Shown: positions 1 through 313 of the stretch, in pieces
How the letters are laid out: each line of letters begins with the position of its first letter
Numbering within the stretch: position 1 is the first letter of the stretch
Source: Actinomycetota bacterium
GTDB taxonomy: Bacteria > Actinomycetota > Actinomycetes > Nanopelagicales > Nanopelagicaceae
DNA: 34,167 bases
NCBI GenBank assembly: GCA_009700025.1
Contig: WLMW01000007.1
Span: 1-34,167 of the forward strand
Reading direction: 5' to 3'
Notes under the pieces: model-generated
Told to the model about the DNA's origin: nothing
Databases searched by the model: none
Seen by the model: only the letters and a program-made list of their open reading frames with translations
Translations under genes and position numbers: made by a program

Positions 1-162
1 CAAAGCCTGCGTACATATGCGGGTCTTGCAAAAGATTGTGTAGTAATCGGTGCAAACACTCGCGTTGAAATCTGGGATGCAACTTCTTGGAATGAATATT
101 TAGCAGATCGCGAAAAGAGTTTTGCTGATGTTTCAGAGGAGGTTTTTCCAGGATTGTTTTAA
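1..162 (+). CDS. mraZ: Transcriptional regulator MraZ, C-terminal part (5' truncated by window)
   Basis: Frame 1 reads [53 protein letters not shown], with the MraZ C-terminal pattern (YAGL..., R-EIWD...W..Y). It lies directly upstream of rsmH, as expected in the dcw cluster. Confidence 0.9.
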
Positions 163-165
163 CTC

Positions 166-269
166 ACTCTCATTTGTGGCCACCGCCGACCCTTCGAAAG
201 TAACGGCGCCCCTTCCCCGGCGCCGCTATTAATCAGATCCGTCGGCCGGCGGTGACCAGAGATGAGAGT
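166..269 (+). ncRNA. mraW-type structured RNA / 5' UTR element upstream of rsmH
   Basis: Nested inverted repeats: actctcat (166-173)/atgagagt (262-269); caccgccgac (181-190)/gtcgg(ccgg)cggtg (241-254, small bulge); terminal cggcgcc (204-210)/ggcgccg (219-225) with loop CCTTCCCC (211-218). The position between mraZ and mraW/rsmH in an actinobacterium and the CUUCCCC loop match what I recall of the mraW RNA motif. Confidence 0.8.
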
Positions 270-313
270 TAGAAAAATTGAAGTGTTGTTCTATCTAATA
301 GTTAGGGGGAGAG

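Follow-up and report, generated by a model that had tools for sequence, protein, structure and literature searches.

A divergent mraW RNA of Nanopelagicales with a loop that may compete for the Shine-Dalgarno sequences of mraZ and rsmH

We have found that the long hairpin located between mraZ and rsmH in an actinobacterial contig is, with good support, a divergent mraW RNA missed by the Rfam cut-off, and that its terminal loop is complementary to the Shine-Dalgarno sequences (SDs) of both flanking genes. We propose that this one loop would compete for the two SDs and set the translation of mraZ against that of rsmH, with mraZ as the favoured target, a proposal on which we are nearly evenly divided. 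A survey published in 2010 listed mraW among the likely cis-regulatory RNAs of Actinomycetales (PMC2864571), and no proven function or mechanism was found for it in the literature that we searched. The window (the whole stretch of 34,167 nucleotides that was analysed) has as its closest named relatives Candidatus Planktophila and other acI actinobacteria, and belongs to the order Candidatus Nanopelagicales. Table 1 collects the features of the region.

The assembly breaks inside mraZ. The 5' part of this gene is found in contig C44 of the same assembly (locus L273), the end of which overlaps positions 1-19 of the window by 19 bases. Upstream of mraZ there are MraZ-box-like repeats of the AAAGTGGGGAA type, and repeats of the AAAGTGG or GTGGGGAA type, also resembling MraZ boxes, are seen at positions 1000-1075 of L273 and upstream of mraZ in loci of the genus. 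Among the records retrieved, MAGs titled Bifidobacterium breve (L342, L349, L370 and L375) carry a Planktophila-like rsmH with 72-81% identity to that of the window and are probably mislabelled.

Table 1. Features of the mraZ-rsmH region, in coordinates of the window.
Feature	Position	Strand	Evidence or remark
mraZ, 3' coding end	1..162	+	stop TAA 160-162
mraW RNA hairpin, RF01746 homologue, whole element	163..272	+	full-model Rfam alignment; fold z = -7.0; family model R1 121.5 bits
Outer stem, 5' arm	166..175	+	pairs with 260-269; also 163-164 with 271-272; fold, covariation
Middle stem, 5' arm, conserved GGCCACCGCCGACC	177..191	+	177-179/256-258, 181-188/247-254, 190-191/244-245; fold, alignment, covariation
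Terminal stem, 5' arm CGGCGCC	204..210	+	fold, covariation
Terminal loop CCUUCCCC, 8 nt	211..218	+	complementary to mraZ leader GGGGAAGG (outside the window) and to rsmH SD
Terminal stem, 3' arm GGCGCCG	219..225	+	fold, covariation
Large internal loop, conserved 3' side, and start of middle stem, AGATCCGTCGGCC type	234..247	+	alignment
Middle and outer stems, 3' arms GGCGGUGACC, AGAUGAGAGU	244..269	+	fold, covariation
rsmH SD AGGGGGAG	304..311	+	GGGGGAG 305-311 complementary to loop 212-218, 7 bp, one G-U
rsmH (mraW), 16S rRNA methyltransferase gene, 317 aa	314..1267	+	start ATG 314

An earlier note on this DNA, made from the letters alone, had described three nested arms (166-173/262-269, 181-190/241-254 and 204-210/219-225) in an element richer in GC than its surroundings. 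The minimum free energy (MFE) fold of positions 160-275 recovers these arms, extending the first one to 175/260 and placing the middle one at 181-191/244-254 with one bulge. The energy of the hairpin was -55.9 kcal/mol compared with -30.5 +/- 3.6 kcal/mol for dinucleotide shuffles, none of which (0 of 200) reached that value. The GC content also agrees with the description, being 59% in positions 151-250 versus 38-51% in the adjacent windows of 100 bases. The motif CTTCCCC, corresponding to the core of the loop, appears only once on the + strand over the 34 kb of the window.

The Rfam cmscan at the gathering threshold gave no match in the window. The alignment of RF01746 to the element covers the full length of the model (1-107) with 32.9 bits (E 2.7e-5), below the gathering score of 50 bits, a cut-off set by curation that does not represent a biological feature. 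This profile search was one of the checks suggested in the earlier note, and the full-length alignment speaks in favour of its identification even at that score. Relatives of the same order behave alike, with 12 of the 20 listed at 31.3-40.6 bits for RF01746 and none reaching 50. In the opposite direction, a model (R1) derived from an alignment (A1) of 61 sequences of Nanopelagicales detects the element in Mycobacteriales and many other orders (e.g., 34.7 bits and E 3.7e-7 at locus L031, 65.2 bits at L211). Within its own genome R1 matches this locus only, with a match on each strand owing to the near self-complementarity of the hairpin. Since RF01746 aligns over its full length and R1 finds the mycobacterial elements and those of other orders, the classification of the window hairpin as a divergent mraW RNA lying under the Rfam cut-off appears well supported.

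The loop points in the same direction. CUUCCCC is present in 61 of the 61 sequences of A1, and CTTCCCC was found between mraZ and rsmH in every one of the 206 fetched loci in which mraZ is followed by rsmH, 138 of them from Nanopelagicales (with some redundancy) and 68 from other members of the class. The identity given in the earlier note, an mraW RNA with a CUUCCCC loop, is thus borne out by profile homology in both directions, by location and by the conserved loop. The stems covary as that note had suggested should be checked: 95.2% of the cells were paired, 201 cells were changed on both sides, and 23 of the 30 pairs had at least one such double change, a number reached by 0 of 500 shuffles (slid controls were 31-53% paired). 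The elements of this order share with RF01746 the position between mraZ and rsmH, the full-length alignment, the CUUCCCC loop and the long hairpin in three parts, and differ from it in their sub-threshold scores (about 31-41 bits), in the sequences of the stems and in having a loop that is matched by both flanking SDs. Weak RF01746 matches in other classes of the phylum were not counted, none of them being beside a recognisable rsmH, and the matches to CcsR1 and RsaOG given by a permissive Rfam scan were at chance level and discarded. One locus (L045, about 1500-1660, - strand) has a tandem pair of mraW-like hairpin cores with ACUUCCCC loops, 39 nt apart.

The upstream partner of the loop is in the mraZ leader. 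In relatives of the genus this leader is nearly invariant just before the start, typically AGCGAACCUGGGGAAGGGGGCGCU followed by AUG, and on C44 it reads GAACCUGGGGAAGGGGGCGCUAAAAAUG. Here GGGGAAGG complements all eight bases of CCUUCCCC exactly, the pairing reaching 10 bp with the flanks; this leader site lies 492 nt away from the loop, at window coordinates of about -288 to -281. The AAGGGGG located 8 nt before the mraZ AUG is a good SD and is overlapped by GGGGAAGG, therefore pairing with the loop would cover part of it. The leader folds locally into a small hairpin that in several species leaves GGGGAA unpaired. An extension of the pairing past the 8-10 core bases, involving GCGC of the leader and of the stem, was considered and rejected, as it showed no covariation (L003, L015, L030).

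For 108 loci of the order, non-identical and spread over 17 genera, we have looked for partners of the loop along the whole mraZ-rsmH region, with no site preset. As partner, the mraZ leader ranked first in 89 of these loci and second in 16, and the rsmH start first in 17 and second in 86, counts that do not amount to independent trials since the loci are related. The loci with rsmH as the best partner were mainly from genera 205, 206, 209, 214 and 215. The motif GGGG[AG][AG]G was present at both genes in 84 loci and absent from both in 3, the totals being 97 for mraZ and 92 for rsmH; among 346 control genes of G083, a closed genome from the genus, only 2 have it upstream. In this genome the mraZ leader surpasses all 346 control starts in pairing with the loop, and three controls equal the rsmH start. 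The controls were 400-kb stretches of two genomes with starts predicted by a simple caller that favours SD-like ones, so that the comparison should be conservative. Besides, GGGGAAGGGG has just 2-4 sites per genome in the ten genomes searched, which in most of them include the mraZ leader and, on the opposite strand, the loop, separated by some 500 nt (G000 has this pair split between adjoining contigs).

Nearest-neighbour estimates, in which loop-loop geometry is not included, gave a net pairing energy after opening of local structure of -10.0 kcal/mol for the mraZ leader and -5.1 kcal/mol for the rsmH SD, the loop itself requiring no opening. The loop resembles the anti-SD and should therefore show some complementarity to SDs in general; when loop pairing was taken relative to anti-SD pairing in the 68 strong-SD genes of G083, 4 equalled mraZ and 19 equalled rsmH. 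The earlier note had assigned the pairing to the rsmH SD. That pairing is available, with 7 bp in the window and an excess of the complement over the controls in the related loci, but as the principal interaction it gives way to that of the mraZ leader, which is usually the stronger partner.

The CUUCCCC core is invariant, which limits the testing of the loop by covariation, and the base that precedes it varies. In some lineages the changes at this base are accompanied by changes in the leader. Loops CCCCUUCCCC go with leaders of the GGGGAAGGGG type in genera 1, 201, 202, 208 and 211; in genus 204 the leader is GGGAAGUGG and the loop CCACUUCCC or CCACUUCCCC; one species of genus 205 (L130) combines leader GGGGAAGUGG with loop CCACUUCCCC, a loop that in several others is found with leader GGGGAGGU. 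Loops paired to their own leaders had a mean of -14.7 kcal/mol, versus -13.5 kcal/mol for loops of other genera (p = 0.0012, by a permutation of genera that ignores their tree). There are exceptions, and the eighth pair is broken, for example, in two species of the genus (2 of 42), where loop ACUUCCCC faces leader GGGGAAGG.

The sequences show a covarying hairpin and two complementary sites conserved over the order, and from this we infer a mechanism in which the pairings would form, would block ribosomes and would follow an order of preference in vivo that amounts to a switch. The hairpin of the mraZ-rsmH transcript would offer the eight bases of CCUUCCCC as an antisense probe for SDs of its own mRNA, the preferred target being GGGGAAGG with the overlapping AAGGGGG about 490 nt upstream, and the second one the GGGGGAG of rsmH about 90 nt downstream. 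After the hairpin has been transcribed, the loop would capture the mraZ SD and stop further synthesis of MraZ from that transcript and, held there, could not block the rsmH SD. If the mraZ SD were occupied by ribosomes, the loop would be free to act on rsmH. The net outcome would be that a single loop sets the ratio of translation between the MraZ repressor and RsmH.

Masking of an SD by a distant complement is known from the maturation gene of phage MS2 and from hok mRNA, which resemble the case described here in having a distant complement of the start site, in unrelated sequences and genes. The nearest mechanistic precedent is icaR of Staphylococcus aureus, a repressor mRNA in which the C-rich motif UCCCCUG of the 3' UTR pairs with its own SD (PMC3868564), a likeness of function that implies no homology. 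In both, a C-rich motif located 3' of a repressor gene complements the SD of the mRNA that carries it. They differ in that the icaR motif is in a 3' UTR, whereas here a covarying hairpin contains it, the next gene also has a matching SD, and the pairing is predicted from the sequence.

Outside Nanopelagicales the case for SD pairing is weaker. The full complement was found in 16 of 65 mraZ leaders and in 9 of 65 rsmH regions, although its absence near rsmH is weaker evidence in GC-rich relatives, where the choice of the rsmH start is uncertain. In genome G582 the mraZ SD outranks all 203 control genes in pairing with ACUUCCCC and is ordinary relative to its anti-SD strength. Streptomyces has no detectable MraZ, and 16 of its 17 loci have a degenerate terminal loop, the mraW-like outer stem being kept in most. 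L331 is the only one of these 17 (drawn from L189, L190, L210, L214, L231 and the range L308-L332) that retains CUUCCCC. Six other genera of Streptomycetaceae also lack a detectable MraZ and keep CUUCCCC in 15 of 15 readable loci, with no consistent complement of the loop near rsmH. A direct dependence of the loop on MraZ, first backed by five Streptomyces loci without mraZ and loop and with the stem kept, was weakened by these six genera and abandoned. Because they keep the loop, pairing with mraZ cannot be the sole reason for its conservation and, as no consistent partner is found near rsmH either, a class-wide ligand other than the two SDs is likely. Pairing with the SDs may then be an added use in Nanopelagicales. 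The same data, with the rsmH complement in so few loci outside the order, speak against loop-rsmH pairing as the general mechanism of mraW RNAs. In many Streptomycetaceae (L275-L297, L305-L333), with or without mraZ, the 3' side of the hairpin carries a second CUUCCCC, about 22 nt past the first.

A protein ligand is thus a serious rival to SD pairing. The hairpin would serve chiefly to bind a conserved protein that recognises CUUCCCC and controls rsmH and the dcw genes (such as an RNA-binding protein of the KH, S1 or cold-shock type, or else a ribosomal regulator or one of cell division), with the SD complementarity being secondary or acquired later in this order. Conservation of the loop over the class, far broader than that of the SD complements, and its persistence in the mraZ-less Streptomycetaceae argue for such a ligand. 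Still, this explanation does not account for the match of both SDs to the loop in 84 of the 108 loci nor for the coordinated changes of loop and leader, and the analysis brought no candidate protein; on balance we consider it rather unlikely as the main role in the order.

We find the model of the earlier note improbable, in which the rsmH SD would be the sole or main partner of the loop and this pairing would set the translation of rsmH. The 7-bp complement, its frequency in the related loci and the 17 loci in which the rsmH start is the best partner are in its favour, but the mraZ leader is stronger in 89 loci and the net energy at rsmH is half as large. Moreover, in Corynebacterium glutamicum and Corynebacterium diphtheriae the mraW motif is transcribed and the mapped mraW/rsmH 5' ends lie inside or after it (PMC3890552, PMC5784534), so that part of the rsmH mRNA in these two species would lack the loop.

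Equally low is the probability that we give to an element for processing or stability, in which the stem would be a site for RNase III or RNase E separating the mraZ and rsmH mRNAs and the loop would be incidental or would help through a duplex with the mraZ leader. The long covarying stem and the 5' end within the motif in C. glutamicum would fit, as would the fact that the pairing of 3' UTR and SD in icaR creates an RNase III substrate (PMC3868564). RNase III is also reported to cleave the mraZ mRNA of C. glutamicum (Maeda 2016, doi 10.1111/mmi.13295), but this cleavage is described as inside the coding region, and a stem alone would need no invariant loop.

Two other explanations have little left in their favour. 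GGGGAA might be operator DNA for MraZ or another factor and the hairpin a by-product, as the MraZ-box-like repeats upstream of mraZ and the occurrence of GGGGAAGG both in the leader and, in inverted form, within the element could suggest, but stem covariation indicates a folded strand, the site falls exactly in the loop and it persists without MraZ, making a DNA site very improbable. An intrinsic terminator or attenuator is hardly credible for this stable GC-rich intergenic hairpin, given that the scan of positions 1-400 for terminators and promoters found nothing, neither a U-tract nor a terminator-like site.

Returning to the competition of one loop for two SDs, the main role of the element may be to regulate mraZ, or it may be a switch with two targets. 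A more doubtful extension of this proposal is that the shared antisense loop would be a built-in translational selector between MraZ, the repressor of the dcw genes, and rsmH, the favoured target differing between genera. The complementarity to two SDs is a specific hypothesis that can be tested by compensatory mutations. This mraW RNA stands at the head of the operon for division and cell wall, in a bacterial group that is among the most abundant in fresh water, and the pattern described here would shift the focus from the downstream gene that gave the RNA its name to the upstream repressor gene, mraZ.
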